Shown here piece by piece: positions 28,721-50,150 of a stretch of DNA of 64,000 nt. The position numbers and the translations under genes were made by a program. This DNA is from Ciborinia camelliae (Eukaryota > Ascomycota > Leotiomycetes > Helotiales > Sclerotiniaceae), in the NCBI GenBank assembly GCA_025890175.1, contig JANPYM010000006.1:62001-126000 (forward strand). Direction: 5' to 3'. The notes below the pieces were generated by a model. It made no database searches. It was given only the letters and a program-made list of their open reading frames with translations, and was not told the origin of the DNA. Positions within the stretch are counted from its first letter, which is position 1, and each line of letters begins with the position of its first letter.

Positions 28721-29793
28721 TCACATCTGAAAAACTACTCAACACCTCCCAGTTATCAACTATCTCAATTTCAAAACTCCCTTTCTAGAATCAATCATTC
28801 TACAACGTCGCCATCTCCACAACAAATACTTCGATATAATGGTTCCTCTCAAGAATCACCTCAGTTATCATCCATACTGTTTCCAAAACTTTGGTTCATA
28901 AAAGTTATCACCAAATTCATCCAACAAGCCCGGTTTGATAATTTGACAATCTTTCTCGAAGTTATGGAAGAAAGGTTCTTGCATTGTTAGGACCCTTCAG
29001 GAAGGTAAACACCATGCAGATCCCCCTACTTTTGATATTCCAGATTCTAATAAAATTGCATATATAGATTTGATATCCTGCGAGTGAAGATCGTCTCTTT
29101 GAGAAAGATTGGATGTGATGATAATTATTCGATCAGTTACCATCACCAGTTATCACGACCAGCTACCACAACACACGTTCTCAAAGTTATGGAAGAAAGA
29201 TTCTTGCATTTTTAGGACCCTTCAAGAAGGTAAACACCATGCAGATCCCTTCACTTTTGAAATTCCAGATTCTAATGAAATTGTATATATAGATTTGATA
29301 TCCTGCGAGTGGAGATCATCCATTTGAGAAAGGTCGGATGTGATGATAATTATCACAATCAGTTACCACCACCAGTTATCATGACCAGCTACCACAACAC
29401 GCGAAGTCATTTCAGCGAACACGACTGCTCCTTGGGGTGTCATCAATATTGAGATCTCCACAAAGGTCATTTCCCTATGCCGAGAATATCTTGGCCCAGG
29501 CTAAACAGTTACCCCCATCAGTTATCACCAACTGTTATCACCAACCGTTACCACATTCAGTATCACACTTATCGATTACTACATTCATCAGTTAGCATAT
29601 TCAGTTAGTACATTCAGTTAGTATATTCAGTTAGCACAGTCAGTTAACATATTTAGTTACCACATTCAGTTACCACATCCAATTACCACATCTAGTTATT
29701 ACATCCAGTTACCACATCCAACTATCAAATCCAGCTATCACATCCAGCTATCACATCCAGTTACCACATCCAAAGACCACATCCAAAGACCAC

Positions 29794-30097
29794 ATCCAGT
29801 TACCACACCCAGTTGGCACACTTATCAGTTACTACATTTATTAGTTATCACCCTATCTCAGTCAGTTTGAAAAGGCTGAGATATTAGTGACGATGTTGGC
29901 CGGTTCGTTGGTGTGGGATGGTGGTTTCAATGTTGTACATCCAGTTACCACACCCAGTTACCACACCCAGTTGGCACACTTATCAGTTACTACATTTATT
30001 AGTTATCACCCTATCTCAGTCAGTTTGAAAAGGCTGAGATATTAGTGACGATGTTGGCCGGTTCGTTGGTGTGGGATGGTGGTTTTAATGTCGTCCA
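29794..30097 (+). repeat. 158-bp tandem duplication at the 5' end of the 30-kb gene
   Basis: Sequence from the CAGTTACCACACC repeats through QFEKAEILVTMLAGSLVWDG is present twice with a 158-bp offset (for example AAAGGCTGAG at 29871 and at 30029). The first copy runs out of frame after the WDGGFNV codons. The second copy leads into the intact frame at 30045. Confidence 0.92.
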
Positions 30098-30797
30098 AGC
30101 TGGCACGTCAGCAATTAAAGAGTATCATAATCATACCAGTGATACTGTCCAGGCGGAAATTCTTGAAGAGAACCCTTGGATGAATGACAACATGGCATGT
30201 ATAAGAAAGTGTAACGAGGAGTGGAAAGTTGAGGCAGATATAAGAACTCTAGCAGCCCTCAATGTTCAAGCAATTGAATTGGCCAAGAAAATAAAGATTC
30301 GGGCGACTGAAGTAAAGCAACACTTGTTGGCCGTCAGAGAATCAAAAGTTAAAGCTCTGGAGGCTGTGAAAGTCTGGGGACCTTGGTTGGAAGAATATGT
30401 CACATGGAGAGAGGCAGGTGGCTATGATTGGGGTCCACGTTATGTCATAGATGAACGGGAGATCATTGTTCCTTGGACCGGAGAACAAAAAGGACTGGAT
30501 GAAATGAACCGATTGAAAATCGAATTGGATACTCTTGAACGTCATGGTGACGGGGAGATTCCTGATAGTCAAGAGCAAGATGGTGATGTCATTAATAGTC
30601 AAGAGCAAGAAGGTGTCATTGATGGTGGAAGAGGAGCCATTGAACCATCCGGTGGAAGTGTTGTCACTATTCCCAAAGGAGGGGTTGTTGGTCAATTTGG
30701 TGAAATTTCATCAGCACCTAGTAAAAGTCCAGCTGGTGCAGTTGTCGTATCGTCAGGAAAGAGACTCAAGTCGAATTGTTCAATGAGTATGAAATAG
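30045..30797 (+). CDS. Unknown coiled-coil/charged protein (lineage-specific)
   Basis: A 250-aa frame of clear coding character; no known domain recognised. It opens MLAGSLVWDGGFNVVQAG after the two-codon MT, has a central Lys/Glu/Ala helix likely to be a coiled coil (about residues 70-115, ALNVQAIELAKKIKIRATEV), a Trp-rich segment KVWGPWLEEYVTWREAGGYD, and an acidic Gln/Asp tail with two near-repeats DSQEQDGDVI and NSQEQEGVID. The true start may lie further upstream: codons before the ATG read SPYLSQFEKAEILV in frame, as in the paralog at 46.7 kb, up to a TAG that could be part of an acceptor (TTATTAG). It sits inside CAGTTA minisatellites. A decayed paralog lies at 46293-47056. Confidence 0.55.
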   Translation: MTMLAGSLVWDGGFNVVQAGTSAIKEYHNHTSDTVQAEILEENPWMNDNMACIRKCNEEWKVEADIRTLAALNVQAIELAKKIKIRATEVKQHLLAVRESKVKALEAVKVWGPWLEEYVTWREAGGYDWGPRYVIDEREIIVPWTGEQKGLDEMNRLKIELDTLERHGDGEIPDSQEQDGDVINSQEQEGVIDGGRGAIEPSGGSVVTIPKGGVVGQFGEISSAPSKSPAGAVVVSSGKRLKSNCSMSMK

Positions 30798-31908
30798 AAT
30801 GAAGCTTAACTCATGCGAATAACTTTTTCCCAATGTTTGCTTCTGTCCTCCTGTCCCAGTCTTCCTTTGCCAACGTCTAATCTATGAAACGGCTGCTGAG
30901 CAATAAATTTGCCCCATTCAAACTCGAGAGGGATTTTCCTTGTTCTCCTTCTCATTTGATATTTGAGCGCGTTATGGATGACTACATCTATTGTCGCACT
31001 GCTCGTCCTGCAAACCAACTCAAGCATCTTGTTTCACTTCTTTGCCCGTTGCCATGAGGTATAAAAGAGGGCCTAGTTGTCTGTCCTTCGAGTGTATGGC
31101 ACAATCTTGGTTTATTCTTGTCCCGCATTGCATCTCCAACTATTTTCAATTTGAGGGTGGAGGCTCGAAGATGGCTTGGAGGTTGGGATTGGAGCTGTGA
31201 GGACAACGGCCGTTTTATGTCAGTAGATCCTCCCAAGGAATGAATAGTGGAGACTTAGTATTGAACGATTTGCCACATGTACAAGGTGATAAATATCTTG
31301 GATGCGGACAGTTATTTTGACAGTTATTTCAAATGCACATAGGTATTGTAACAGCATCAATATCAATATTTACATTGGCTTTCCTCTTCATGGTTAGCTT
31401 CTTCACCTCTCCACTCATTACTTCTACTAGATGATTTGACTAACGTTTGAAATTTATCAACACAGCCTCTATACAAATGATACCACAATAACACACTTGC
31501 TCAATCGCTTGGAAATGTACTCAAATTATATACTTTCCCATGCCATGCAGAAAACGCAGGTTCACTCGTCCGCCATACAAGACACGGAGTTATTCCCATC
31601 ATAGTAAGTTAACTCGTCACCTCTCATCACCATTTATACCACAAAATTTGACTAATTTCATGTATACAGATTACATGGTTGATTTATCAACTCTCTCAAC
31701 CATGCCTTGGTCCCTTATCATCTTCTCCATCCCTCTTTATCGGTGGACTCCTCATCGCTGCGATTTCCCTTCGTCCAGTCGCTCCAGTTATCAGCCCACA
31801 ATGTACGTAACATCAAAGTTCTGTGTGCCATATATTTTTTTGATTAACTTTGAGAATAGCAATCATGGGTTATGAAGATTCACCTGGAAAAATATCCTCC
31901 TCTATTGA

Positions 31909-32142
31909 TTACCTTTTCCTGTTCCTTTCATCGGACTGGATCTTCAACATCCTCAACTTCCAACTCCCTTCTCATCTCCGGACCACCTCTTCGAAGATAT
32001 GAATGAATATAAACTTTTTCGCCGATATGATGATACGCCTACAATCTGGCACCCAGATCTTTATCCCAGAAATGTCATGTTCATCTCATCAGTTAACAAC
32101 TCGACCCCTCACCATCAATTAGAAGTCAGTTATACGGTTTAG
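31909..32142 (+). pseudogene. Phosphotransferase (APH/AIM9-like kinase fold) fragment
   Basis: A 77-codon open stretch reading PVPFIGLDLQHPQLPTP, then DHLFEDMNEYKLFRRYDD and TIWHPDLYPRNVMFIS. HPDLYPRN fits the catalytic-loop signature HxDxxxxN of aminoglycoside phosphotransferase/AIM9-like fungal kinases, which commonly read LWHPDLHPxNIFV. The segment before it, with a helix leading to the loop, also fits. The frame is closed upstream by TGA (31906) and downstream, after a CAGTTA copy, by TAG without the DFG-like IIDW element. An intron with good signals just upstream (GTAAGT at about 31605, TATACAG at about 31670) may belong to the same former gene. Non-functional as it stands. Confidence 0.45.
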
Positions 32143-32689
32143 GATGATTAGGTTATTATCATCTATCAGTGTTTCATCTATCCATGGAAACTTGAATACA
32201 TCAAGGCACCAAACTACATAAGATTTCAACAACTTACAATATCATAACAGATCAATCAAACTCCATCCTGTTACAGGTATTTGATCTACCTTTGATGAAA
32301 CCCTCTTCCATCTTCTATCCACAACTATTCAAATCAGTTATTCCACAGAGAATGGCCATTCATGGATGGTTTGTAGACCTCATCGACCTTTCAACTCCAA
32401 GACATGTACGTATGAAACAAACCATTGACTTTACATACTTTACTTTGACTAACCCTATGAGAGACGATGAAGACGAAGTCCTTCTAGTCCATATATAAAA
32501 TATCTTCAGTTAGCACTGCCGATCCGAATTCATCCAACAATCACCTACCACCATATCATATCGTCATACAAGATACCTCAATCACATTCAGTTACCACAT
32601 CCAGTTACCACATAGAGACTGGAATCACATCACAAGCCTCATTTGCTTCAGAGATAACACCTCTCAGGTTATTGAAGCCTCTCGGGTTA

Positions 32690-33200
32690 CTTTTCAGTTA
32701 CCAGTACAAAAGCGCAATACAATATCGCGTACTACACACCGTTTGACTTAGAGGTGGCACCTCTTCAGTTATCAGTACTTTTCAGTTACCACCAGTACGA
32801 AGGCGCAATACTACACACCGTTTGCTCTAGAGTTAGCACCTCTTCAGTTACCACCAATACGAAGGTGCAGCACAATATCGCAAGCCGCATTCTGTTTGCT
32901 CTACAGGTAGCACCTCTTCAGTTACCAATACAGAAGCGGAACACGATATCGCGGGCCTCATTCTGTTTGCTCTAGAGGTAGCACCTCTTCAGTTACCAGT
33001 ACCCTTCAGTTACCACCAATACAGAAGCGGAACACGATATCGCGGGCCTCATTCTGTTTGCTCTAGAGGTAGCACCTCTTCAGTTACCAGTACCCTTCAG
33101 TTACCACCAATACAGAAGCGGAACACGATATCGCGGGCCTCATTCTGTTTGCTCTAGAGGTAGCACCTCTTCAGTTACCAGTACCCTTCAGTTACCACTA
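32690..33200 (+). repeat. 91-bp minisatellite
   Basis: Units carry GATATCGCGGGCCTCATTC, TTTGCTCTAGAGGTAGCACC and two CAGTTACC copies. The ACACGATATCGC landmark recurs at 32941, 33032 and 33123, giving an exact 91-bp period, with older diverged units to the left. It ends at the duplicated gene tail that starts near 33245. Confidence 0.92.
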
Positions 33201-33244
33201 TCGCGAGCAGCATTGTCGCTGCTTCGATGGCAGAACCAAGATAA

Positions 33245-33415
33245 GTCAATGTTACCGTTCCTTTCCCTGAGGACGAAGATGACGAAGGTGTCATTGTCAA
33301 TGATGAACAACATATCATTTTCCAAGTTGAATTTGAGGAGGTGAGGGTGGCACAGGAGAGGGGAGGTGAAAAAGAAGAAGAAGAAGAAGAAGAAGAAGAA
33401 AAAGAACACAGCTAC
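33245..33415 (+). pseudogene. Inverted 3'-terminal fragment of the 575-aa gene
   Basis: Plus-strand frame reading DDEGVIVNDEQHIIFQVEFE, then EVRVAQERGGEK and a Glu run. It matches the minus-strand gene tail at about 42510-42645 (DDEGVVVNDEQHVILQVEFE, EVGVAQEGGGEK, Glu run). It ends in HSYEV and TGA rather than the parent's IVIAGQVPKPIS. It is a truncated, relocated and inverted copy. Confidence 0.8.
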
Positions 33416-33489
33416 GAGGTCTGAAGATGAATCAAGTTATACAAGGTTTACTTTGGGTTTGATGCTTTTGTTAGATCTTTGACTGTTTA

Positions 33490-34900
33490 TACTATCAATC
33501 TCAATTATTTCCCATCCACTCTTTATCCCAATACCTTTATAAACCTTAAATATTTCCCTTATTTTATTTGTAACCGTCTATAATATTCTTCTTATTAAAT
33601 TAATTTGAAATATTTGATAATTGTTTGATTCGCTTTATTTCTATTATTTTATAAAAATTGAATAAGATTGAGTGATTCCTCACCATAGACATTGATTGAT
33701 ATATCGTACCTCCTATTATCTAATAGAGCAACCTTCTCAACTCAAGTTCCTCCAATTTTTCTGTATATGCGTTCATAATAGGTGATTTTAGATATCGAGC
33801 TTGATATCGTTGAGGGGGTGTTCTTGATGTAGGGTGTAGAGAGGTTGATTGTTTATTATGTACGATTTGAGGTTATATAGGCCCACTTAGAATCGTACCT
33901 ACCATATTGATTCCTAACACAGTCCCACATCCACAAACAAGACAAAATAAGCAAAATTAAAGCTATTCATAATCTTTTTCCAATCTTTTTTTGTTTTTAA
34001 ACTTTAATATAAACCCTAAAACTATTTCCATGTTTTTATATCTTTTTTATTATTATACAAATCTAGCATTATATCTTAAAACCCGAATTCCAATTCATCC
34101 TATATCGTAATCCATTATCAAAATTGCTAACGATAGGATTTATGTCTTTAATCTTTAATATCAACCTTATATATTTCGTGAATTATCGCTAAAGTTTGCC
34201 CATTTATATATCGATTGAAGAATTGTTAAATTATGCATATCGCCGTATATCTATATTGAAAAATTGAAAGTTGAAAAGAGTTTGCTAAAAAGGTTTGGAT
34301 TTGAATATAAATATATTATAGATTGAAACGTAGGGTACAAGGAATATATATTTACTTTCCGTTTGAAATATTAGTTAAAAGTTCGAGATTTGGAATTCGA
34401 TAGTGACAATTAAGGCATTAGCGTGTGGAATTTGAATCATATTGAAGCCAGGAATTTCTTTAACTTAGAATTCTATTTCTGTGTTGGTCACCATGAGAGG
34501 GTATTCTTGATGTAGGGTGTAGAGAGGTTGATTGTTTATTATGTACAATTTGAGGTTATATAAACCCACCTAGAATTGTACCTGCCATATTGGTTCCTAA
34601 TATCATCAACACTATCTTCTTCATATATTCACAAAAATAGCTCACTTTAATATCAAATATAAATTAAATATTTTAATATCTCAATTTTCATTTATAATTA
34701 TTTTTTATAACAAAACAAATAAATATATAAATATAATAATATATTTTTTTTTATTTAATTTAATCAAATATTAATAATAAATTATAATTAATTAAAATAA
34801 CTCAAATCCATCACTAGAAAATCCATTAATCTTTAAAAAATAAGTCTTGGTAATTGATCAGAAATTACAATCTCCTCTTCCTCTTATTCTCTTGTGCCAG
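33490..34900. repeat. RIP-decayed duplicate of 41765-42520
   Basis: Three collinear blocks (about 33490-33680, 33700-33810, 34603-34900) match 41765-41945, 42140-42235 and 42232-42520 in the same orientation. Differences are overwhelmingly transitions, with this copy carrying T for C and A for G, for example CCTTAAATATTTCCC here against CCTTGGGTATCCCCC there. The last block includes the extreme 3' coding end of the 575-aa gene on the minus strand. A 792-bp LTR element interrupts the blocks at 33811-34602. Confidence 0.85.
33811..34602. mobile_element. Miniature LTR retrotransposon (TRIM-like), 109-bp LTRs
   Basis: Two direct repeats of exactly 109 bp, at 33811-33919 and 34494-34602. Both start TGAG and contain a TATATA-type box; one ends CCTAACA, the other CCTAATA, consistent with a TG...CA LTR. 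About ten differences, all transitions. The 574-bp interior is AT-rich with no coding. The flanks TCGT (33807-33810) and TCAT (34603-34606) form a 4-bp target duplication with one transition. The paralogous locus near 42232 is the uninterrupted site with a single TTGT, proving that this segment is an insertion. Confidence 0.85.
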
Positions 34901-35949
34901 TAGTATTGTTGATATAACTTGTGGGTTCGAATTTGGGCTCAAGTTTGATGTAACTGATAAATAACCTAGAAAAGGATGGCCTCCCTCAGTGGCAGATGCC
35001 CTGTATGTGGGTTTGGCGAGGTGGAACCACCGGGTATGTAACTGATTGCTTTCGTTCTGATGTAACTGGGAGAAACATCTAGGAGAGAATGGCCTCCCTC
35101 AGTGGCAGATGCCCTGTATGTGGGTTTGGCAAGGTGGAACCACCGGGTATATAACTGAAGTTATAGCAAGATAATAACTGAGATGTGGGAATGAGAATAA
35201 TCCGAACGCTGTCTTTGGTTAAGGTGAGGTAACTGAGATGTAGGAATGAGAATAATCCGAGCGCTGTCTTGGTTCTGGTGGAGTAACATGAGTTCTTGTT
35301 GTAACTGTGAAAAGTGTAACACCACCACCACCACTCCCCTACGCCGCCACCACCACCACTCCCCCTACGCCGCCACCACCACCACCTCATCCAACACCAC
35401 CACCATTCCCCCTACGCCGCCACCACCACCACTCCCCCTACGCCGCCACCACCACTCTTCTACCAGTAACTGAGCGAAACTGCCATATCTAACCAAAGCA
35501 AATCTGGGCTAGTGTTCAATGAGAATGAATTGGTATAAAGTTGAACTTTTCTACCAGTAACTGCCATATCTAACCAAAGCAAGGCTGGGACCGAACTCTT
35601 CTGTCAGTAACTGAGCGAAACTGCCATATCTAACCAAAGCAAGGCTGGGGCTGAACTCTTCTGTCAGTAACTGAGCGAAACTGCTAAGGCTGGGGCTAGT
35701 GTTCAACTAGAATGAATTGGTATAAAGTTGAACTTTTCTACCAGTAACTGCCATATCTAACCAAAGCAAGGCTGGGGCTAGTGTTCAACTAGAATGAATT
35801 TTGAACCAGTAACTGAGCGAAACTGCCAATGCTGGGACTGGTGTTCAACTAGAATGAATTGGTAACTTTTCTACCAGTAACTGAGCGAAACTGCCAAGGC
35901 TGTGGCTAGTGTTCAACTAGAATGAATTGGTATAAAGTTAAACTTTTCT

Positions 35950-36200
35950 ACCAGTAACTGAGCGAAACTGCCGTATCGATCACGGTCTTGATATCCTCCT
36001 CCACGGCGTTCATCACCTCCACGGCGTTCATCACCTCCGCGGCGTTCATCACCTCCACGGCTGTAACGATCACCACCATTGCGGTAACAGAAGATTGCCT
36101 TGACTGCGTTGGGGTTGACAGATTTGACGATTGCCAAAGCAGCTGCTTGAGAAAGGAAGCATATCTGCCGTGGTAGGCACAATGGGTTAACTGTTGAAGA
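35950..36200 (-). pseudogene. RGG-box-like coding fragment
   Basis: Minus-strand frame reading AIVKSVNPNAVKAIFCYRN, then GGDRYSRGGDERRGGDERRG and YQDRDRYGS. The repeated RGGDER unit resembles the RGG boxes of RNA-binding proteins. An acceptor-like TTTCTCAAG precedes the AAALAIVK part. It has no recognisable RNA-binding domain, and both sides run into TAACTG repeats, so it is taken as a gene fragment trapped in the array. Confidence 0.35.
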
Positions 36201-36234
36201 AGAATAACTGAAGATAGACACGAATGCATCCATA

Positions 36235-36470
36235 AACAATCTTCAAAAGATTAATAACAAGAGTCATTGTCAAGATGATGACGGTGATGAAGGAAGCATA
36301 TCTGTTGTGGTAGGCACAATGGGTTAACTGTTGAAGAAGAATAACTGAAGATAAATACGAATGCATCTATAAACAATCTTCAAAAGATTAATAACAAGAG
36401 GCATTGTCAAGATGATGACGGTGATGGATGATGATGATATTGTTGTTCTTGTTATTGATAACTGACTTGG
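36235..36470 (-). pseudogene. Two tandem copies of the 5' end of the 575-aa gene
   Basis: Around 36255-36275 and 36388-36412 the minus strand reads MTLVINLLK and MPLVINLLK, matching the first codons MPLVMNLLK of the gene at 44200. Its upstream GATGATGACGGTGATGGATG tract is also present. Homology stops after about nine codons, where sequence unrelated to the gene and TAACTG copies take over. Confidence 0.7.
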
Positions 36471-37309
36471 TGCAACACTCAGGACAGACGGAAGTGGTGG
36501 ATGTAGACGGTGATGAATGATGACTGTGATGGATGATGATGATGTTGTTGTTGTTATTGATAACTGACTTGGTGCAACACTCAGGACAGACGGAAGTGGT
36601 GGATGTAACTGGTAACTGGTAAGTGATCCAAGGTAGATTGCAAAAAAGTCAACGTCAAATGTTAACGGAGGGGTAACTGTTAAATGATCCGGGGTATGGA
36701 TATGATTGTGAGTTCAACAGAAGAATGGATAACAAACCCTTGAAAGCAGTAGCCTTTTCCAGGGTATGATCAACTCCTTCGAGAACTGGCTCAGCTACTC
36801 AAGTGATTGAAGATCGAAAGTGACTGAAAAGTGGTCTAGCTACGCAAGCTGTCCGGAGTAACTGAAAAGTGGTCTAGCTACGCAAGCTGTCCGAAGTAAC
36901 TGAAAAGTGGTTTGGAGTAACTGTCCGAAGTAACTGAAAAGTGGTCTAGCTACGCAAGCTGTCCAGAGTAACTGAAAAGTGGTCTGGAGTAACTGTCCAG
37001 AGTAACTGAAAAGTGGTCTAGCTACGCAACTTGTCTTGGGTAACTGAAAAGTGGTCTAGCTACGCAACTTGTCGTGGATAACTGAAAGGTGGTCTGGAGC
37101 AGCAGCACCATTGACTTCTCTCGTTTGTGCAGATGGCTCATCGAACATATAGCTAAGTTACAATCAGTAAGAACTTATTGAAACTTTGTGGACACCATTT
37201 ACCCAGGATATAACAGATCTTCTTAAACGCAGGTCAGTAACTGATGTAACTGGGAAAGGTAACAATCAGATGGTAACTGAATGTATCACCTTGTGCAAAA
37301 AGATGATAG

Positions 37310-37575
37310 TGGGAGCTTCTTCTGATAGTATTTCAAGGTCAATAAATCTGACCCCTGGTTTTCTTTCACGTATATCTCCCAGGCAATCTCGATGTTCTTC
37401 AAATCGACGAAAATAATATCATTGGTGATAATGCAAAAAAATAATAATAAAAGCTTTTTCTAATAATATTTTAAGATCAATAAACCTAACCCCTAGTTCT
37501 CTTCCACATATATCTCCCAGGTAATCTCGATGTTCTCCAAATCGACGAAAATAATATTATTAATAACAATGCTTC
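37310..37575 (-). pseudogene. Two tandem copies of an internal segment of the 575-aa gene
   Basis: Minus strand at about 37310-37435 reads TNDIIFVDLKNIEIAWEIYV and then LLTLKYYQKKL. The parent reads TNDIIFVDLENIEIAWEIYV and then LFTLKYYQKKL. A second copy at about 37452-37575 reads NNIIFVDLENIEITWEIYV but has picked up TAG codons by C-to-T-type changes. So one copy is still open and the neighbouring copy shows RIP-like damage. Confidence 0.8.
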
Positions 37576-40021
37576 TCTATATAAAAAGGATTACCGGATT
37601 GTAGACTTGTAGCATTAACATTCCCGACTTTGTTGCTGGGATATATAACAAACAAATAATAACTGAAGGGTCAATATGCTCAAGCAAGTTGGTAACTGGA
37701 TTCATCATCTTTCACCTTGACAATAGTGAGAGGAGTTGCTGGATCTGATGCTGACTTTGAGCTGCAGACCTGACCTAACATTTAGTTAATTTCAATTTCA
37801 ATGTTTGATTCAGTTTGATCATTTTGCTTACCTCTGCGAACTCAATTGAATAGCCAACTGAACATTTGTGAATCAGATCTTGATGTAACTGTGCCACTAA
37901 CTGTTGGAAGTCGTAGACAAGAGAAATTGAGGTAACAGCGCGACTTCAATTATGAAAGGTGAGACTAAAATACATAATTTCAGAAGAGACAGGTGAAATA
38001 TAAACTGTGAGGGTGAGGTTAAATAACAAATTTGGTTATGCGACCTTTGGAGGGGATGTGCGGTTCCCTAAAAGTAAAGGAAAATAAGAGTGTAACAACA
38101 GAGTTGGATTACTCCGTTCTTGGAGGAAGTGGTTGATTTCCCAAGTTGAAGAAATGTAACTGTAGGGTTGGATCACCCTATTCTTAGAGGAGGTGGTTGA
38201 TGTAACTGTAAGATTAGTTGAATTACCTACCCGGTTCCTTATAGAAAATCAATTCCACTCAGATCCATCTTCAAGAAATCTGCCAATATATTGGAGATGG
38301 GGCGGGAGTGACTTACCATGGTCCAAATTAGTTCGTACACCAATGAAATTGGAAGATAGGTTGGTGCTTTTCGGTAGGTAACTGAGTAGATTCTTTCGTT
38401 GCGACAAGGAGATGAGTAACTGTAAGTTCAAGTTAACTGAAGTATCTTCCCATGGTCGAAACTGTTTCGTCATGCGAATCAAGTTAGCGGAAGCTTGAGG
38501 GTTCCTCCGAGATGGTGAGGTGGAAGTTAGGTGGAGGTGGGCATAGAAGTGTGATGAAGGATGAAGTGAGAGGTGTAAGGTGAAGTAAAGAATAATTGCT
38601 AGGCAATTCCATCTAAACATTTGAAGTAACTGTGCTGTATGTTGGTTGCTTCCAGATGATTGATCCAGCCAGCTGTTAACTTCTGAATCTTAGAAGTAAC
38701 TGTGCTGTATGTTGGTTGCTTTCAGATGATTGATCCCGGTGATAACATCTAAACATTTGAAGTAACTGTGCTGTATGTTGGTTGCTTCCAGATGATTGAT
38801 CCAGATGATAACATCTAAACATTTGGAGTAACTGTGCTGCATGTTGGTTGCTTTCAGATGATTGATCCAGCCAGCTGTTAACTTCTGAATCTTAGAAGTA
38901 ACTGTATACGAGTTGCACATCTCGCAACTGAATATTGGTTGCTTCCAGATAACTGATCCAACTGAAGTAACTGTATTTGGAACAATGTGGTGAATAACGG
39001 TATATGTCATCTCTTGTTATGAATCCTTCAAAATAACTGTATGTGTGATGGTGTGGTATGCCAGGTAACCAGTAGAGTATAAGCGATTGTGGGAATATAA
39101 CAAGAAAGTTGGAAACCATTCGGTAGATCGGCAGATGTAGATTTCCTAGTCTCGTGTTTATTCTTTCTCCTTCATTAACAGAATGAAGTAAATCAGATTG
39201 TAACTGTTGATTGAGGAGGCTACATCGAATGGGAGTGGTCGCAGATCTCATAGTATTCGGATGGTAACTATATTGATTGTTAGAATGAAAAATTGAAAAG
39301 TATTGAAATTATCGTATCTCTATGATGAAGACTTACTCGAGAACCAGTAACAGTAACCCAGAATAATAATAAACTCGGATTTGCATTCAGCCTTTGAGAT
39401 AGGAGAATTGTTTGAATGATTAATCTCATCCTCATCCTCATCAGCAAGACAGTCTTCGACAATTCTTATACTTCCGCATATACTATCTCAAACCAGAGAA
39501 TGATTTTGTGATAACCTCATTAGCTTTATGGAATATTTGGAAGGTCTTCGTGGTAAATCTTCTCAATTTCTCGTAAGAGAGACTCGGTGAACTTCGTAAG
39601 GCACGCGTACTTTCGCAAATAGTGAGTATAACTAAAACTATCGTGCTCGTTGTTGTATTATGATCGATGTAGGAAGTTGATTGTGTATTCTCATTCTGCT
39701 ATATTCGTAATTCGAAGGTATGAAGTGTGATTGTATCTGAGACAAATATTAGAATTTTGAAGTTGAAATGAGGACTCGATGGTGTTTACTGTAACCTTGT
39801 AATGAAGCTGTTGATAAGAAAATCAAGGGTTTTTTTGAATTTTCCTCACCCGGCAGAGGTAAAAAATTAAATATAAAGACCATGATGATTAAGATGATCA
39901 AATTAAAATATATCGAGTGATGGAAGTTTGTTTTGTGTTGGAAGTGGGTGAGAATGGGAGACAACACCTCTCGGTGGCACAACAACATTGTGTGAGGAGG
40001 TTGTTACCGAACATCAAATAT

Positions 40022-40182
40022 TGTTGGATAAATCACGTGCCTACGGCACCCCCGCGCTACGGCGCTAGCATGCGCTAGCGGGCATATATAGTTGATCTGT
40101 AGCATAGTTTTTAGAGCTTCGAGCCAAATACACTGAATACTATAGTACATTTGTTTCTCCATCGCCCATGGTGATTCCAACA
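40022..40182 (+). mobile_element. Solo LTR, copia-like, with perfect target duplication
   Basis: 161 bp beginning TGTTGGATAAATCACGTG and ending GGTGATTCCAACA, the TGTTGGA...TCCAACA inverted ends typical of Ty1/copia LTRs. Flanked by a perfect 5-bp duplication AATAT (40017-40021 and 40183-40187). Contains GC-rich palindromes (GTGCCTACGGCAC, CGCTAGCATGCGCTAGCG) and a TATATA box. A shorter inverted relative is at 52732-52831. Confidence 0.88.
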
Positions 40183-40700
40183 AATATATTTTAGAAAAAT
40201 GAAGGTGTGGTTTAATATGTAGTATTGGTATTAATGATGGACATACTTGCTAGGTATTTGGTATTTTTCATTCATTTATATCAATAAAAAGTACTATCAT
40301 CAGTATGTAATTGTAGTACGCTGTGCTGGGCAAAAGGTATGGTTACCCGGGGTAGATCTGGGCAGAAATAAAATGGTTACCACCGTACTATATTCTTCAA
40401 AGTAGGATTTAAACTTTATAAAATATCAAATAATATAGATCTAACCGCCGGGTAGTACGTGTGGCTGTAATTTGTAGGGGGACTTCGAGGGAGGAGGAGG
40501 TTTAGGGTAAGAGGGGAAGAGGGGAGGATTAGAAGAGGAGGGGATAACCTCAATTTTGATATATCAGACAATAGTATGATAAATATTTGCGGGTAGAACC
40601 GTACCCAGAGGTTTCATAAAGTAATCACACTGTAATTGTAATGACCTGGGGGTAGGGTGACCACCTGTATGAGTCAAATACTCCAGAAAATCCTCATCCA

Positions 40701-41267: not shown

Positions 41268-42410
41268 CTACCACAAGAACAGAAGAATCCTCGACTCAAG
41301 CTACATGTGGGGATATTATATGAAGCGTTCCTGTTGATGATGCTGCGGAGTATGGATCGGAAGAATGAAACAATGGCATTCTTGATGCCACGCAGTTGCG
41401 AACTCCCACACCAGAGTGTGTGGTATCATTTCGAGAGTATTGTTCGTCTGCATGAGTAGAAGTCGTCGTAGGATATGATGGTTGGCCGTTGCCAGATTGC
41501 AGATGGATCCCAGAGTACCATAGTAGACCCCGTATCAACCCCGCAAGTATCTCATGTACCATATATACCAGCCCAAACTCAAACGTCTCCCAATATGCCC
41601 AAGTGCCCAAAATCGTCCGCATTGATCGGCAGATTCTATACGAAAAAGTATTAGCCTTTGCACCACCATAACCCCAAGTATTATAGTCTGCGAACCATGT
41701 AACTCATCCCTACGTACAAGAATCTGCGAGCCGTATCGGTTGCGCGACCGCCAGAAGATTTATAACTCCATTTCAATTATTTCCCATCCGCTCTTCATCC
41801 CAATACCATTGTAAACCTTGGGTATCCCCCTTGTTCTGTGCGTCACCGTCTGCGATATCCCTCTCGTTGAGTTGACTTGAGATATTCGATGGTCGTTTGA
41901 CTCGCTTCATTTCTATTACTCCGTGAAAATTAAATAAGATTGAGTTCTTCCATATGAGATGAAAACTTCTCAAGTACCTAGAGATCGAGGACCTCTAAGC
42001 TGCGCATGAGGGAGTGTTTACAAGTGCACTTGAATATCCTTGTGATTCCTCACTATCTTACGATCTGAAGTTCCCTTCTCAGCAAGAAATTGATGGCATT
42101 CTTAATATATCGAGGCACTAGTAGGTATTCAGCTCATTTATTATCTAATAAAGCAACCTTCTCAACTCAAGTTCCTCCAATTTTCCTGTATATGTGTACA
42201 TGGTAGGTGATTTTAGATATCGAGCTTGATATTGTCAACGCTATTTTCTTTATATATTCACGAAAATAGTTTATTTTAATATTGGGTATGAATTGTATAT
42301 TCTGATGTCTCAATTTTTTTTTGTAATTATTTTTTGTGACGAAGCAAACAAGTATATAGGTATAGCAATATATTTTGTTTTATTCGATTTAATCAGGTAC
42401 TAATGATAAA
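41268..42410. other. Flank of the 575-aa gene; less-mutated copy of the duplicated segment
   Basis: Contains blocks 41765-41945, 42140-42235 and 42232-42410 that are duplicated at 33.5-34.9 kb. The minus strand at 41773-41925 reads EMKRVKRPSNISSQLNERD with protein-like composition but without a start or partner exon. Minus-strand 41296-41622 is open but unrecognised. No gene called. Confidence 0.5.
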
Positions 42411-44200
42411 CTACAATTGTTTAAAATAGCTCAAATCCATTGCCAGAAAATCTGCTAATCTTTGGGAAATGGGTTTTGGTACTTGACCAGCAATTACAAT
42501 CTCCTCTTCTTCTTCTTCTTCTTCTTCTTCTTTTTCACCTCCCCCCTCCTGTGCCACCCCCACCTCCTCAAATTCAACTTGCAAAATGACGTGTTGTTCA
42601 TCATTGACAACAACACCTTCGTCATCTTCAATCAAATCTTTGGAATTTGCATCCTGAACTTCGATGAATTGTGGTGTAGTCGGGTATGATCCTGGTGTAT
42701 CCCCACCATACAACTCGACACCAATGTCATCTTGAGTATCATCATATAAATCAACATCCGTATATGAACCTTGAGTATCTCTCAACAACTCAAAATCCGT
42801 CTGAGAATCTTGTAAGTTGGAATCCTGACTATCCTGACTAGCATATAACTCGAGATCCATCTGCGAGCCTTGAAACGATGATGAGGAAAGAACTATGACA
42901 TCTTGTGCAACTGAAAGATCAGGGACAATTACTGATTGATCTTGGGAAGGGATAGCAACAATGACTTCTTCTGGTTGTGCGGCTGCATGAACAATGAATT
43001 CTTCTGGTTGTGCGGCTGCATAGTCAATGACTTCTTCTGGTTGTGCGGCTGCATAGTCAATGACTTCTTCTGGTTGTGCGGCTGCATAGTCAATGACTTC
43101 TTCTGGTTGTGCGGCTGCATAGTCAATGACTTCTTCTGGTTGTGCGGCTGCATAGTCAATGACTTCTTCTGGTTGTGCGGCTGCATAGTCAATGACTTCT
43201 TCTGGTTGTGCGGCTGCATAGTCAATGACTTCTTCTGGTTGTGCGGCTGCATGAACAATGAATTCTTCTGGTTGTGCGGCTGCAAGAACAATGACTGATT
43301 GGTCTTGGGACAACAAAGGTATAACAACAGTGACTTCTGTTCGTGAGACCGAATGAGCAGGGACAATGACTGATTGATCTCGGGATGGTAAAGGGGCAGG
43401 AACAATGACTCCTCTTGTTGCAAATCTTTTCCTCAGAATTGCATCTCTCTTCCACCACAAAGATTCCAAGTGGTCCATTCCCCTCTCCTCTCGCGAGAGC
43501 TTCTTCTGATAGTATTTCAATGTAAATAAATCTGCCTTCTCTTCAACGTATATTTCCCAGGCAATCTCGATGTTCTCTAAATCGACGAAGATGATATCAT
43601 TAGTAACAGTGCCTCTTTGCTTGTACCTTCTCAAATAAGCTGCCTCCTTCAACTTATGGACAAACTCAAAATGAGGGGGGTTAGGTCCTGCTTCCATGGA
43701 TGGCTTTTGTTGCAAGGCAATATTGACACCATCAAGCTCCTTCCCCTTCATTTGACGATAGTACTTGGCCAACTTGACGACATGGCGGAAGATAGCCAAC
43801 CCACGACTCTCTTTGAAAACTGGGCAACATAGTAAGGTGATCAACTTCTGGGGAAACTTGCCGTTCCAATTCGTATTTGGAATGACTTCACCAGTATGTG
43901 GATGTTTGACTTTCGGTTCATCCCAGGGGGAAGTCATATCACAAACTTCGTCTGATGGTAGGAGGTCGAAAGCATCAATTCCGTACATCTTTCTGACCTA
44001 AAAATTATCATATTAGTAAAGATACAATTGATAGGAGAAATGTAAATTTGGAACCTTACCATACGCCAAAGCTTCATTTCTGAGGATTGACTTGACAACA
44101 ATAACTCCATATCCGCAACATCCCAACCAAGGGGAAAATTGACGACATCTCCAGATATATCCTCTGCCTTTCGTTTCAACAGATTCATAACAAGAGGCAT
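42411..44200 (-). CDS. Unknown 575-aa protein with ten 11-residue AAAQPEEVIDY repeats
   Basis: Two exons, 44060-44200 and 42411-43997, joined in phase 0 (ATG|GTAAGG...TTTTTAG|GTC), give 575 aa. Residues 1-250 form a non-repetitive, probably folded part: MPLVMNLLKRKAEDISGD, NFPLGWDVADMELLLSSQS, a Cys-containing KLITLLCCPVFKESRGLAIF, FVDLENIEIAWEIYVEE and WWKRDAILRKRFATRG. The middle holds ten tandem units of AAAQPEE plus four variable residues: seven are AAAQPEEVIDY, two AAAQPEEFIVH and one AAAQPEEVIVA, encoded by a 33-bp minisatellite at about 42968-43298. Ser/Asp/Gln-rich repeats and a Glu run follow, then the C-terminus LADFLAMDLSYFKQL. No family recognised. Fragments of this gene litter 33-38 kb, so it is the parent, or the best-preserved member, of a local repeat family. 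Confidence 0.7.
42968..43298 (-). repeat. 33-bp coding minisatellite (10 units)
   Basis: Tandem copies of a 33-bp unit (plus strand ACTTCTTCTGGTTGTGCGGC... with TGCATAGTCAATG). Seven central units encode identical peptides, so they are recently homogenised; the outer units differ (TGCATGAACAATGAA, AGAACAATGACT). The repeat is in frame in the 575-aa gene. Shadow frames on the plus strand give FFWLCGCIVND-type peptides and are not genes. Confidence 0.95.
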
Positions 44201-46292
44201 TGTGACGGTAATGGATTATGACGGTGATGGATGATGATGATGTTGTTGTTCTTGTTATTGTTGTTGTGATTTTGAGTTGATGGAAATTCAAAAGTCAAAA
44301 GTTAAATACCTACCGCGATTTTTTTAAGCGAGCCAGAAAATTGAAAAATATTAATGGCAGGACCTCACCGTTTAGGTTGTATGCGAATGGCTGTAAACTT
44401 CAAGATGGGAATATGAGATCTTTTTAGTATTAGAATTAATATTGTAAACTTTACAAGGCTCACTGAGATCATTCTCTACGTCTAATTTGATAGTAATTTG
44501 ATGGTAATTTGATGGTAATTTGATTTATAGGTATTTATTTATTACTTGAGGTTACGAAAGATATCCCAATGAAGGAACCGCTAATACTTCTTTCCTCACT
44601 ACCTTATCTCATGCCTTTCCTTATGAGAAGTGCCTTCAGCCGCTTGACTCATTTACCACAGAAATCCGCAATGAATTTGAAATTCTTCCATCTAGCTACA
44701 CGTTCTTCGCCTCATCATATCACCTTTCTCAATAAGGACTTGATGAGAATCACATCATGTCTCTTCATGGCGTCGAGTATTTACTACATATCCCTTTTAC
44801 TCATTGCTTCATATCAGCACAATTGTAGCTTGAGCCTGTTTTGCTTTATGCCAGATTTCCATTTTCATCCCGAGCTACGAACAAGACAACAACCACAACC
44901 ACAACCACACACATGAGAGAGAGAATGGGCTTGGGAGGCTACTACCACGAAGGACAAGAGAAGTAATGCCAAGGGAATGAAGACTAATGCCGCAAAGAAA
45001 CGAGAAGGAGACAAAACAATGACCGATGTCATCACCATCATTGAAGGGCTTCAATATCCTACATGCCAAGCCCCTCCAAATCCTAGCATCTCAATTAACT
45101 TCCATATTTTTCATCGGAAGACAACTTAAGCTCAGCCAATAATAAAACACTAGCTAATCCGTCTATAGTGCTGCCACGGCCAAGACATCTATCCTTTTCG
45201 CCTCCCTATGTACGAAGAACAAGACGAAAGATTAAGCCACACAAGGCCTTGCCAAGAGGACGTAGCAATTTTCGAAGCATTATAACAGGATAGAGTATGG
45301 GGTTGAATGAGGGTTATCTGGGTTATCTACACACAGTAAGGATTGCCCCTTCATAGATTGGATTTGGCGAGGAGACATGGGAAGATGGCGAAGGGAATAT
45401 GAATGATGGAGTATTGAGAAGAAGATGGAGAAAGAAAGATTCAGAAAGTAGCATCATTTTCTTGGCCTACGTGGTAAGTTTGATTCTTTCAAGGGCTTGA
45501 ATTGGATTGGTCAAATTTAAACTAACTTTGGGACGGTGGCAGATAGTGGCAGACGGCGTAAACTCTAGCTACTCTTGGCATATTCCACTAAGAACCTCTA
45601 CTGCTCATTCGAAGCTTTATAGCCTATCCTCATGCGTTCACGTCACCCTTGCTTCATTTCATACAATCATGAAGAGTATCTTCCGCTATTCGACCCAGGT
45701 ATATCGAGCCCTCGGATTCAATCCTCAATATCCTCGATGGACAGCCAAGCAGTTTCAGTGTTTCCAATAGTCCTGACTGCAGTCCGACAATGAAAGACTT
45801 CTTGATTCTTGCATTGAATCAAAACATTTATATCATTTGGAATATTCAATTCATTTCGAACATTAAATCGTATACGTACATTGAAAGCTCACATCTGGTC
45901 TGCTGGTCCGGACTATTAGACAACCAAGTCGTCTCGTATGTTAACTTCTCTAGCGGATCCAATTTGTTACGACAGGCTACCAGTTTTGTTGCTTGAGATA
46001 GCTAAAGAAGAGTATAAGTCAAACTCTTTTGTGTTTTACCCCTTCATATATAACAACCTTGACTGATCATCTGCCTAGCTTTGAAATACAGCATCGGTAT
46101 TGTTATTTGCGAAACTTCAGAAGGTGGTCAAAGAAAAATCGAAGATCTCCTTATAACTTTACATAAAGACCTTGTTACATCCACTGTTAAGAATGATATC
46201 GGACACAAAGTCTCGGTCGAGGATCCTAATATCAACCTCAAGCATCTTCTGTACAACAGTGTCAATTCACCAGGTTTTTACTTTCCTCTAGG
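44201..46292. other. Upstream of the 575-aa gene; weak coding relics
   Basis: Immediately above 44200 is a GATGATGACGGTGATGG tract also seen at 36.2-36.5 kb. A spliced-looking patch lies at about 45351-45730 on the plus strand: a frame ending FLAYV, a textbook intron 45474-45542 (GTAAGT, CTAAC, GGCAG), then IVADGVNSSYSWHIPLRTST. Its start and partners could not be set. Nothing else supported. Confidence 0.4.
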
Positions 46293-47056
46293 TACCTGCG
46301 TTTTCACACATCATGCCAAAAGACCCACCAAAGAAGAATCAACAAAACTCAAGACTGGTATCGAATCCAATGCCAATTCACTCTGAAGGCGAGACCGTAC
46401 ACCGTTACAAGAGATGTCAAGAGAGGTGGTATTGCCAATTGGTTCACTAATTTGAAGACATTTTTTCATGTTATCAAGGTGAGATTCAAGCACAATTGGA
46501 ATCCTTCGGGCAACGAGATGCAGCTTGAGATGCCCTGCCAAGTTGGCTGGGATGTTACAGTAAAGGCTAGAATGAATCCACATGACTATCAAAACATGAG
46601 CACAAATCATCCAAGTGTTTTGATTTATTTCTTGCCTGTCTCGGACACCTCGGAATCGAGATTGATATGATTTTGATACCAATTATTAAGATTTGGCACA
46701 ACCGTGGATATGATCGGCTACCTTCGGATGTTACTCAGTTCGAGAAGGCTGAGATTCTTTTTACCATGCTTGCTGGCTCATTAGTATGGGATGGTGGTTT
46801 CAATGTTACTCAAGCGCAGAGACTTGATGCCTGTTTGGTTGGATTCTATGGATGATTATGTTGCTTTGATAAAGCGAGGATGTAGCGTTCTGTTATCGGA
46901 GAGGAAGTTGGAGTTGTTGGCGAGGATGGAGAAACTGGATCTGGTGTAGATGAGGTTGTGGTTATTCCAAGCGATGACCATGATGATGATATTGATGATA
47001 CTCATCACGTTAATCCCGTCACAGGGTTGCGTAGAGGTTATAAACGGGATGCCTAG
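46293..47056 (+). pseudogene. Decayed paralog of the 30-kb gene
   Basis: Three successive frames look coding. 46293-46670 is an open stretch containing VTRDVKRGGIANWFTNLKTF after an acceptor-like CCTCTAG. 46667-46855 contains DRLPSDVTQFEKAEILFTML and AGSLVWDGGFNVTQA, closely matching QFEKAEILVTMLAGSLVWDG at 30 kb. 46892-47056 is an acidic tail, VIGEEVGVVGEDGETG to GLRRGYKRDA. The frames do not join without frameshifts or very short introns (a 41-nt GT-AG candidate at about 46560-46601 would restore one junction). So the locus is either broken or has a complex exon structure. Confidence 0.5.
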
Positions 47057-47809
47057 GGCAACGTAGTATGTAGGCCATTATTCCGCTTTTAGATGTGTAT
47101 CCCAATAGCTCTCGAACTTCCCAATTCAATAAAAGGAGCTTGCTTGTGTCAACTTTGAGATATCACTGAGATTTGTGAGATTTAAGAAGCCATATGGATC
47201 ATCCCAGTGAAAGAAAGGATTGCATGCAATAATTTTCGGCCAGCAATACCTCCTATAATATTCTTCCAGTGCTAGACGTATTACGCAAAGTAGTACGCCC
47301 CAAACAGTAAGGTAATCTATGCATGCAGCCTTTCTCGTTACCACTGAAAGCAACACTTTCAGTATCGGTATTTCCCAAATATTCTCCATATATAACTGCA
47401 CTAGAATGATGGACAGTGGAAAGAAATCCCATTATACTGGGCGTCTTTTGAAAACCTCTACTTTGCTGGTATGTTGAAGAGTTTTTGACTTCTGCGTTTC
47501 ACTTCTGATAACCGGTGCCGGATGCTGCAAGGCTGTAAGTATAATGCAGGAGATGAGAGGAAATTTGGAAAACTACTTCCTTCTCTTTATCTGCCATCTT
47601 TCCGCTGTGTATATGTCAGGAACTGCCATGATATAAGTGCAGGTATTAACGTATGTGTCCGGCCAGTCTATCGTAGATCAATACGACGCCCGGTTCGGGT
47701 AGGGTACGCCGATTAACTAATATCTCACATTGACTAATAGGGTTCGACACATCAAATACTATCCCGATGAGTCCAAAGTTCTGCAGAACCTTGCGTGGAC
47801 TAGTAACCC

Positions 47810-48160
47810 TAGTTACTTCTGTTCTACCGCCGCTGCAGCAGTTACTTCTGTTCTACTGCCGCAGTTACTTCTGCTGCCCCAGTTACTTCTGCTACTGCTG
47901 CTACTACTGCCCCAGTTACTTCTACTACTGCTGCTACTACTGCTACAGTTACTTCCGCTACTTCTGCTACTACACTTTCTATCTCTTGCATAGGGTATAA
48001 TTTCTGTCTAGAACATTAAAGATACTGGCACTGACTGAAACTACAGGAATTGATACTGTTACTTCTGTTGCTGGCGTTACAGTTACTACTACAACTTTTT
48101 CCTGGTGTTGTTACTTCTGCTGCCGCAGTTACAGTTAACAACAATCGCACCTTTTTCTGT
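47810..48160 (+). repeat. Thr/Ser-rich coding-type repeat containing CAGTTAC
   Basis: A run of GCAGTTACTTCTGCTAC units. In one frame it reads APVTSATAATTAPVTSTTA and further VTS/ATT repeats up to LSISCIGYNFCLEH, a mucin-like Ser/Thr-rich peptide as in fungal wall proteins; other frames read poly-Leu or Tyr/Cys. No signal peptide or anchor is attached. Here CAGTTAC arises as the codons (GC)A GTT AC(T). Confidence 0.7.
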
Positions 48161-50150
48161 TAGTCTACCAGTTACTTTGATTGTTCTTACATTCCCTAGA
48201 AGGTACGTAAACTTTATCATTTTCTACATGTTTACTCGAAGTTCATGACCTCATACTTTAAAGGGATGATGGTTTGGTCATGGCTGACTGCGATCTGATT
48301 GACCTCGATCTGGTATCAAATTTAATTTTATCTCATCTTCATTAACTTGTCCAACATGATCAACATCTTCATTTTTTTTCCCAATTCTGTTTGATATGTT
48401 CTCATTCTTTTATATTTTCTATCACATTCTCGTCCAACATATTCAGATGATTAGATATTTGATTATGGATATGGTTGATAGATTTGGCAACAATTTTTTC
48501 AGTTGTCTCTTCAACATCCGATAGTTTCAGGAAACTATTCACTATCTTCTACTTCGCGTATTATGCTAATGAATATTAAGGATAGTTAGTTACACAAGAA
48601 GGTCCCATTTCGTTACAAGTACATCCTCAAACTCCGAAACCGAAAAGCACACTTAAGAACAATACGTTATTCTCAAACCTCGACAATACGTTATCTGCCA
48701 ACCTAAAACCACGATGCGTTATCCGCGAGCCTCGAAAAGCGAAGAGCACCTTAAGAACAATACAAGTGAGAGTCAATCAGTTATATCTTCAAGTTAATAG
48801 ACTTTTGGTCACGATATCGATCAGCCAACGATAGTCTACTGAACGGTAGTAGTAGCTTGGGCACTGCTTTTACAATTCCCACCAACTCTGCAAGGAAATG
48901 GCACATAATCAAGAGCAGTTACTCATCCAAAGTCAAACCAATCCCATCACATCCTCCAAACCTTGCATAACCAGTTATCACCTGTTACCATAGTTCTTAC
49001 CTTTACAAATTCGTCAGTTATGAACATGGACAGATCATCACTATCGATGTGGTGCGCTCAAAATTGACAGACAACAGTTAATCATTCGAACCTCTTAAAA
49101 CAATCTCGAAAGCCTTTGACGGCATCGTTTGGCAAGGGTTGACCACCCGAAAGTTTCTAAGTTGTGTTGTCAGATATCACAAATTGATATTTGACAATAG
49201 TTAACTACAAAACAATTAACTTTATTCGAAGGTTCCTAAATTGTATTATCAGATATTACAAATTGATATTTGATAATAGTTAGCTACGAAACAGTTAACT
49301 ACAACAATAATTAACCACCCGAAAGTTTCTAAATTGTGTTGTTAGATATCACAAATTGATATTTGACAATAGTTAACTACGAAACAGTTAACTTTATTTG
49401 AAGGTTCCTAAGTTGTATTATCAGATATCACAAATTGATATTTGACAACAGTTAGCTACGAAACAGTTAACTTTATTCGAAGGTTCCTAAGTTGTATTGT
49501 CAGATGTCACAAATTGACGTTTGACAATAGTTAGCTATGATAACAGTTAACTCTATTCAAACCTCTCAAAACAACCACCCTATGCTGAAGTCAGTTACCT
49601 CAGTTAATGGCAGAGGTTTTCAATAACCATCCCATGTTGAAGTCAGTTACCTCAGTTAATCGCAGAGGTTTTCAATAATCATCCCATGTTGAAGTCAGTT
49701 ACCTCAGTTAATCGCAGAGGTTTTCAATAATCATCCCACACGGAAGTCAACCTCAAAAGCCTTCAACAATAACCAGAGAGGGAATGGGGGAGTTATTGAA
49801 AGGGAAACATCACATCATGAAGTTCTCCTGATACTGCCATGGTTAGTTAGTTCACGTATGTATACTCTACCTCAACTCTACACTTATAAGGTATATACTA
49901 ATCTCAGTGTGATAGATCAGACCGCCTCATGTTATCATCCAACAGTTACCGGAATCGATACAGCAAAGATTGATCACGACTTGCATCTTGTGTTATTAGA
50001 TGATAAAAGATTATGGTATGGTTGCGGGGTACGGGTTGCGGGGTACAGTTGCGGGCTATGGTTGCAGGATACTACGAAGGATATGAGGACTGAAGGGGAT
50101 CATTTGATGTATTTCATGAACATTGGCAAGTTTAGTAGAGATTATTAACT
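48160..50150 (+). repeat. Second plus-oriented CAGTTA sector with 85-bp and 52-bp minisatellites
   Basis: Units of about 85 bp at 49090-49560 carry TTGATATTTGACAATAGTTA and CGAAACAGTTAACTTTATTC. Units of about 52 bp at 49575-49745 carry GAAGTCAGTTACCTCAGTTA three times. CAGTTA is again on the plus strand. No gene is supported; a 96-codon frame at 49858-50148 is unrecognised. Confidence 0.85.

Follow-up and report, generated by a model that had tools for sequence, protein, structure and literature searches.

The fungal system nearest in form to the locus described here appears to be meiRNA (sme2) of fission yeast, whose determinant of selective removal (DSR) hexamers are read by Mmi1, with 9–13 core motifs lying within 1.1–1.6 kb in meiRNA-L (PMC3352096). 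Among mammalian RNAs, the conserved NORAD has at least 17 Pumilio sites, kept in old tandem units that have otherwise diverged (PMC4947167). The subject of this report is a single stretch of ~21 kb in the fungus Ciborinia camelliae in which the hexamer CAGTTA occurs, by exact count, 121 times in three sectors; we call it the CAGTTA locus. It lies in the window, a 64,000-nucleotide stretch (C24:62001–126000) of the 46.2-Mb, 27-contig genome, C-numbers denoting contigs of that genome and all other coordinates being those of the window. Literature searches found no description of this locus.

As with meiRNA, a single hexamer recurs many times along one strand of a fungal locus, but here the copies number 121 in ~11 kb, the hexamer is a different one, gene fragments lie between some of the copies and the locus is known here from DNA alone. 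It shares with NORAD the diverged tandem units in which short sites are retained; unlike the conserved NORAD, two genes of the CAGTTA locus have no known occurrence outside Ciborinia. As in capture by Helitrons or Pack-type elements, unlinked genes have contributed short pieces to one place, although neither element enzymes, in the parts scanned (see below), nor element ends were found. To our knowledge, a hexamer between captured pieces is no feature of such elements. CRISPR (clustered regularly interspaced short palindromic repeat) arrays consist of a short direct repeat separated by unrelated inserts of other origin, and the CAGTTA locus resembles them, by analogy only, in having a short direct repeat with unrelated inserts from other sequence; its repeat, however, has six bases, its inserts differ greatly in length and the identified ones derive from host genes. 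General Pfam scans turned up no cas-like gene, no search aimed at cas having been made. We know of no system among those compared that joins pieces through a fixed hexamer.

The three sectors are as follows.

28750–33194, + strand: sector A, CAGTTA 41 times on + and 0 on −
34951–39206, − strand: sector B, CAGTTA 54 times on − and 0 on +, with numerous unrelated repeat units
47839–49948, + strand: sector C, CAGTTA 26 times on + and 0 on −

Chance, as estimated from the rest of the window, would give 0.59, 0.59 and 0.28 copies in sectors A, B and C. The original prediction, made by eye, had put the counts at 35 or more, over 50 and about 25 and had described a near-total strand polarity within each sector; the exact counts bear this out, and polarity is in fact total, with 0 of the 121 copies on the opposite strand. 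Sector B is inverted relative to sectors A and C. On both strands of the whole window there are 133 copies, 12 of them scattered outside the sectors, as compared with 31.2 in 100 dinucleotide shuffles (standard deviation 5.4, maximum 45), and within the first 226 kb of the contig, as far as readable, 1-kb bins outside the locus have three at most. Elsewhere on the contig (156 kb) CAGTTA is mildly rare, ranking 181 of 4096 hexamers: 29 copies were counted, while 44 are expected from trinucleotides and 39 from pentamers. On the CAGTTA strand of the sectors, C exceeds G in 20 of 24 bins of 500 bp (7/10 in A, 8/9 in B, 5/5 in C).

Tandem repeats are present in all three sectors, and the periods reported by Tandem Repeats Finder include 13, 38, 52, 66, 91 and 110 bp, besides 33, 60, 68, 102, 137, 158 and 225 bp. 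The periods proposed earlier (13, 37, 52, 66, 85, 91 and 111 bp) therefore have close counterparts, except for 85 bp, in place of which 79 and 93 bp were found. Sector A includes the following minisatellites.

29.5–29.8 kb, sector A: 13-bp minisatellite
32.9–33.2 kb, sector A: 91-bp minisatellite

Many sector A copies of CAGTTA are members of one 13-bp family, CAGTTACCACATC; seven copies are dispersed at 31.3–32.5 kb. The proposal that the hexamer is conserved while its surroundings are not is thus right overall but partly untrue in sector A, where this family is common. Contexts were collapsed by single linkage, copies that share either 15-nt flank at 60% or more being joined at the severest settings. 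This left 9, 12 and 10 contexts in sectors A, B and C (Poisson p 1e-8, 2e-12 and 6e-13), and the mildest settings left 12, 30 and 17. A greedy redundancy filter retained 59 of the 121 copies, whose flank columns are approximately random, with a weak preference for A/T before the motif and C/T after it. In sector A, AGTTAT and TTATCA, which overlap CAGTTA, retain slightly more contexts than CAGTTA itself. A single satellite would show one unit and flanks common to all copies; instead, separate contexts persist in every sector and the counts do not fall to background on collapse, as had been anticipated by the claim that the arrays are not one expanded satellite. Slippage of one unit alone was rejected as an explanation because the contexts survive collapse.

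The same claim was exposed to a second check, whether other repeat blocks favour other hexamers, and withstood it in the 170 kb of the contig that were scanned. In sliding 4.5-kb windows, 111 of which contained a scored hexamer, the CAGTTA sectors score highest (−log10 p up to 11.5), as compared with 5.9 for the best hexamer other than CAGTTA/TAACTG. Genome-wide, triplets of CAGTTA with gaps of 10–40 nt occur 42 times, of which 16 are at the locus; of the other 26, 16 lie in a 9-bp array on C12, 4 in a 12-bp array on C21, 2 in a 42-bp repeat on C4 and the rest singly on C1, C3, C12 and C27. The control pattern, CAGTTA reversed without complementing, gave 27 genome matches. Within reach of this close-spaced search, the mixed CAGTTA array is confined to one locus.

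Parts of the sectors are mosaics of sharp-ended fragments of 45–155 bp from other loci. A DNA search of the sectors against the whole genome matched 17 outside places over 35–241 bp (A 5, B 7, C 5); the genome matches comprise the sectors themselves, pieces of the two genes of the locus and such short pieces, and a second full copy of the sectors is absent. Fourteen of the 17 were read (C3:257100, C22:711540 and C27:504320 being left out), among which L069 and L072 are second copies of one source sequence, and L073 and L074 are of low complexity; the C27 row covers the same repeat, so that three of the 17 are low-complexity. Ten distinct fragment sources remain, 79–100% identical over the matched stretch.

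29489–29548, + strand: fragment from C11:494813–494872, 93% identical
31724–31790, + strand: fragment from C12:1044928, 84% identical
31988–32082, + strand: fragment of an APH-family kinase gene, C21:3180470, 92% identical, sense
35077–35121, − strand: fragment from C8:381198, 96% identical, repeated at 34963–35008
35485–35956, − strand: Argonaute N-terminal fragment, tandem full and partial copies, C12:693639, 76–96% identical
35972–36084, − strand: fragment of an RGG-rich open frame, C24:191547, 54 bp at 100% and an adjoining 51 bp at 96%
36090–36149, − strand: eEF3 gene fragment, C12:2516550, 92% identical, sense
36706–36784, − strand: fragment of a probable transportin (karyopherin beta-2) gene, C24:2309570, 87% identical, sense
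37131–37205, − strand: RLI1/ABCE1 gene fragment, C26:1324056, 95% identical, sense
48814–48968, + strand: fragment of a Ser/Thr-rich open frame, C24:1617489, 79% identical

The Argonaute source, which has a second genomic copy at C25:692691, was identified with a best E of 0.009 and a sub-cutoff Pfam ArgoN match (E 0.012). Identification of transportin is weak (E 0.17), yet nine of the nine chains listed are transportin. The RLI1 piece, by our reading of its source, includes the intron. In the unit 35745–35815 an Argonaute piece stands between two CAGTTA, with 2 nt to spare at its 3′ end and its 5′ part altered. The match to C12:1044928 stops where the source has CAGGTA, an exon end by our reading, and the array has CAGTTA. 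Two small stretches adjacent to the locus, 7.5 kb together and its close neighbours, served as controls: 24.2–28.43 kb, on the left, had no genome match except itself, and 44.3–47.6 kb, with 40 of 41 candidates scored, matched only a dispersed family resembling miniature inverted-repeat transposable elements (MITEs) and pieces of P0002, an orphan gene of the locus. The MITE-like element, ~170 bp at 45756–45926, has some 40 dispersed relatives at 70–93% identity, again with 40 of 41 candidates scored.

The C11 source has an open frame that carries CAGTTACCCCCACCAGTTACC with a 13-bp rhythm; its two CAGTTA are 13 bp apart, and the sector A minisatellite begins with units that match the end of this frame. 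Judged from these similarities, the C11 fragment probably seeded the 13-bp minisatellite. Could the hexamer then be a by-product throughout, fragments that happened to carry CAGTTA having been amplified by slippage and unequal exchange and the word spread by shuffling? The spacing of the motif pair in the C11 source and the tandem repeats of all three sectors would fit such an origin. Nevertheless, 9–12 contexts per sector outlast severe collapse, the core is intact while its flanks are near random, and by eye the contexts of sectors B and C are unlike the 13-bp family. We regard it as unlikely.

Where direction can be decided, the fragments are in the sense orientation. For all five sources identified by homology (eEF3, Argonaute, RLI1, the APH-family kinase and, weakly, transportin) the reading direction is that of the CAGTTA strand, and in three more (L063, L068 and L070) the longest open frame is also on that strand, in L068 narrowly (70 vs 64 residues); for L022 and L071 open frames are indecisive. 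A two-sided sign test gives 0.06 for n = 5 and 0.008 for n = 8. Sectors A and B also have, within them or alongside, pieces of P0002 and of a second orphan gene, P0001, and these too are sense. Such a consistent orientation may point to RNA or complementary DNA (cDNA) as the source of the fragments.

The ends of the fragments were assessed with mononucleotide shuffles as the null for end extension and random placement as the null for motif position; neither is an evolutionary model. Anchored extension beyond both ends of nine fragments (L071 excluded) gave scores of 0–3, with a smallest p of 0.11 against shuffles, and homology past the fragment ends, at which a lenient alignment had hinted, was dropped as unsupported. 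Motif position was tested on nine fragments, L071 being included and the C11 piece excluded because the motif is already in its source. CAGTTA was internal to one of the nine, as compared with 4.7 expected (p 0.015). In a window picked post hoc, which lets the motif begin as far as 4 nt within the fragment or 8 nt beyond its end, CAGTTA or a one-letter variant was found at the 3′ end in seven of nine fragments, as compared with 2.1 expected (p 0.001). Other post hoc windows gave the motif within 12 nt downstream in five of nine fragments vs 1.6 expected (p 0.011) in an earlier variant of the test and, with one mismatch allowed, at 11 of 18 ends vs 6.6 expected (p 0.03) in a two-ended test. Of the readable joins between fragments, that from RGG to eEF3 reads TGTTA, and the other, GCAGTTTCGCTCAGT, completes to CAGTTAC using bases already aligned to the Argonaute source.

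We tentatively favour a reading in which the locus grows by acquiring short stretches of transcribed genes, at a CAGTTA site or next to one, and by tandem duplication of the product, the hexamer being the junction or the target. A staggered six-base cut at CAGTTA would open a gap that a passing fragment fills and that fill-in seals; fill-in would leave the join with its own hexamer, and so multiply the motif in one orientation with unrelated sequence between the copies. The source would be RNA, or cDNA, with copying primed at the target so that the 3′ end of the fragment meets CAGTTA, and slippage afterwards would spread units such as the 13-bp one. RNA-mediated break repair is reportedly the topic of a published study. 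No candidate gene for an insertion enzyme was seen in the scanned parts of the locus. Insertion of this kind would account for the polarity and multiplication of the hexamer, the unrelated inserts, their sharp ends, the association with 3′ ends and a decay of the motif that resembles that of the fragments. One-mismatch copies of CAGTTA number 91 in the sense orientation, as compared with 40 expected (49 antisense), and the excess of ~51 against 121 exact copies implies, by simple arithmetic, a decay of ~5–7% per site, similar to the divergence of the fragments themselves; placement followed by ordinary decay could therefore suffice. A recombination signal, as raised in the original prediction, or an insertion signal is a live explanation, and the hexamer is kept where its neighbours differ.

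A bolder version has the locus as a self-growing library of host gene scraps, in which short sense RNAs are reverse-transcribed site-specifically into CAGTTA with duplication of the hexamer, and which would act as a memory-like or small-RNA source locus, CRISPR-like in form but unrelated in origin. We consider this version improbable.

Several observations weigh against insertion at CAGTTA. The 3′-end window was selected with the data in view. A clean target-site duplication should leave CAGTTA at both ends of a fragment, but the motif or a variant shows no excess at the 5′ ends, being found at three of nine vs 2.2 expected; nor are exact hexamers enriched near the 18 ends (5 vs 4.3 expected, p 0.42). 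One CAGTTA within a fragment arose by substitution, the Ser/Thr-rich piece having it where its source at C24:1617489 has TAGCTA, and one motif pair came in as part of a fragment, as is evident from the C11 source. The CAGTTA-rich 37.56–39.48 kb, 1.9 kb of sector B, has no match elsewhere in the genome even at E 10, so that the mosaic holds for parts of the sectors and much of the array has no matching source. Insertion fits the 5′ ends poorly and does not explain the part of sector B that lacks such a match. Finally, the motif in sector B behaves as if constrained: differences between repeat copies fall in 3 of 133 motif columns vs 133 of 1156 others (p 3e-4), in a sector-wise split made after the overall result (26/331 vs 257/2252, p 0.06).

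The last observation favours the main alternative, in which the sectors give rise to RNA of the CAGTTA strand and its repeated CAGUUA binds a factor in trans, the RNA being a decoy or scaffold. That factor could be a hexamer-reading RNA-binding protein or a small RNA beginning UAACUG and loaded on Argonaute, and selection would keep or add copies on the RNA strand. A decoy RNA should carry its motif on one strand in many contexts, as is seen here; the total polarity, the sense orientation of the gene pieces and the mild scarcity of CAGTTA in the 156 kb elsewhere on the contig also agree, and meiRNA offers a fungal precedent (PMC3352096). Sector A, however, shows no constraint (21/174 motif columns vs 104/874 others); in sector C the figures are 2/24 and 20/222. 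Predicted RNA accessibility is raised at sense sites (0.162 vs 0.118), and on the sense strand only, but shuffling the flanks gives 0.151 (standard deviation 0.013), so local base composition can account for the rise. A literature search on UAACUG and RNA binding gave no obvious reader. An RNA platform is accordingly a possible but doubtful explanation. The two readings are compatible, as an origin by insertion can be followed by use as an RNA platform.

Binding to double-stranded DNA fared less well. TAACTG agrees with the c-Myb consensus YAACNG, and it had been suggested that a Myb-domain protein or an element's own transposase binds the arrays; a polar fork barrier would be a further possibility, and the switch in polarity at the AT-rich island between sectors A and B is in keeping with an array of DNA-binding sites. 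Sites for a binder of double-stranded DNA, had they arisen independently, should, however, occupy both strands, and 0 of 121 lie in the opposite orientation; the array is found at one locus in the close-spaced search, and no Myb or transposase domain was found in the scanned parts. The suggestion is thus unsupported, and DNA binding in any of these forms seems to us very improbable.

The Pfam scans just referred to covered six frames of 39.4–47.6, 23.0–28.7 and 50.0–53.5 kb, where no family was matched at E ≤ 0.05, and the sense frames of sectors A and B, where four sub-cutoff matches include no Myb, transposase, reverse transcriptase, helicase or integrase; the full scans stop short of sector C, 33.4–34.8 kb and the antisense frames of both A and B. 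Protein-coding repeats were rejected, the frames of the sectors being mostly closed, the four Pfam matches just named sub-cutoff and PDB matches of those sense frames at chance level. Among the 25 longest of 38 inverted pairs at 27–52 kb, none provides element ends that bound the sectors. An inverted pair at 40022–40129 and 52748–52831, 77% identical, encloses the right half of the region, including sector C. Sub-terminal repeats of a transposon were rejected because the scanned parts have no such domains, no ends were found and the close-spaced search gave only one locus.

Capture of gene fragments is known for Helitrons of plants and animals (PMC4289320), and the sectors might likewise be parts of a gene-capturing transposon of Helitron or Pack type. 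The scanned parts, however, hold no helicase, replication or transposase domain, the inverted pairs examined do not bound the sectors, although the 40.0/52.8-kb pair encloses C, and the genome has no second full sector copy, although non-coding derivatives are conceivable. Helitrons of the fungus Pleurotus are, moreover, reported in PMC4289320 not to capture host gene fragments. Of the explanations considered here, this seems the least probable.

The orphan genes, their pieces and the island are placed as follows.

30003–30797, + strand: orphan gene NHQ30_005158 (P0002)
33275–33399, + strand: P0001 3′ coding piece, 94% identical, sense, directly downstream of sector A
33495–34890: AT-rich island, 26–30% GC, between sectors A and B
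36379–36457, − strand: P0001 5′-end piece, 85% identical, sense, with a second copy at 36506–36559
37313–37576, − strand: two P0001 coding pieces, 78–83% identical, sense
42411–44199, − strand: orphan gene NHQ30_005162 (P0001), two exons

A stretch at 46.7 kb is similar to P0002, and by comparison with it CAGTTA array takes the place of the 5′ part of P0002, with the join near CAGT, and CAGTTA starts 1 nt from each copy of the P0001 5′-end piece. Protein searches with P0002 and with P0001, whole and as residues 1–245, matched only Ciborinia entries, two proteins of the window agreeing with C. camelliae entries at 100% and 99%; for whole P0001 the best 7996 candidates by shared words were scored, and the distant paralogues are not among the matches. 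These paralogues, at 30–40% identity, are at C22:479523, C1:1442553 and C27:493519, with weaker matches besides, and a P0002-like match at C13:96082 has 56% identity over 32 residues. In the stretches read near the relatives on C22, C1 and C13, a CAGTTA cluster is absent. A 33-bp repeat in NHQ30_005162 (42959–43296, 10 copies) is translated as the 11-residue repeat AAAQPEEVIDY. The P0001 N-terminus gave a visual impression of Myb, but no Myb family was matched in Pfam at E up to 10, and a structure model of P0001 was set aside for its very low confidence (mean predicted local distance difference test score, pLDDT, 34.8).

The island consists in part of copies of 41.8–42.5 kb (41767–42519) mutated by repeat-induced point mutation (RIP): C>T or G>A make up 35 of 43 and 42 of 61 substitutions, and 3 of 7 in a third, short pair. 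Elsewhere in the window, inverted arms of ~117 bp surround an AT-rich core at 23459–24107 and have many dispersed relatives, two adjacent genes of the 2EXR family lie at 59778–61016 and 61941–63038, and a perfect CCATA pentanucleotide array of 26.6 copies occupies 1011–1143. Rfam (at gathering scores) and tRNA scans of the window found nothing.

If the motif is a target that is copied with each insertion, the CAGTTA locus would be a natural record of how a fungus takes up fragments of transcribed genes at a specific sequence. If it is instead an RNA platform, it would specify an RNA that carries a hexamer array several times larger in motif number than that of meiRNA, and would be ready bait for a reader of that hexamer. 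On either reading, the locus illustrates how one short conserved word may come to occupy a region that is not a single satellite.

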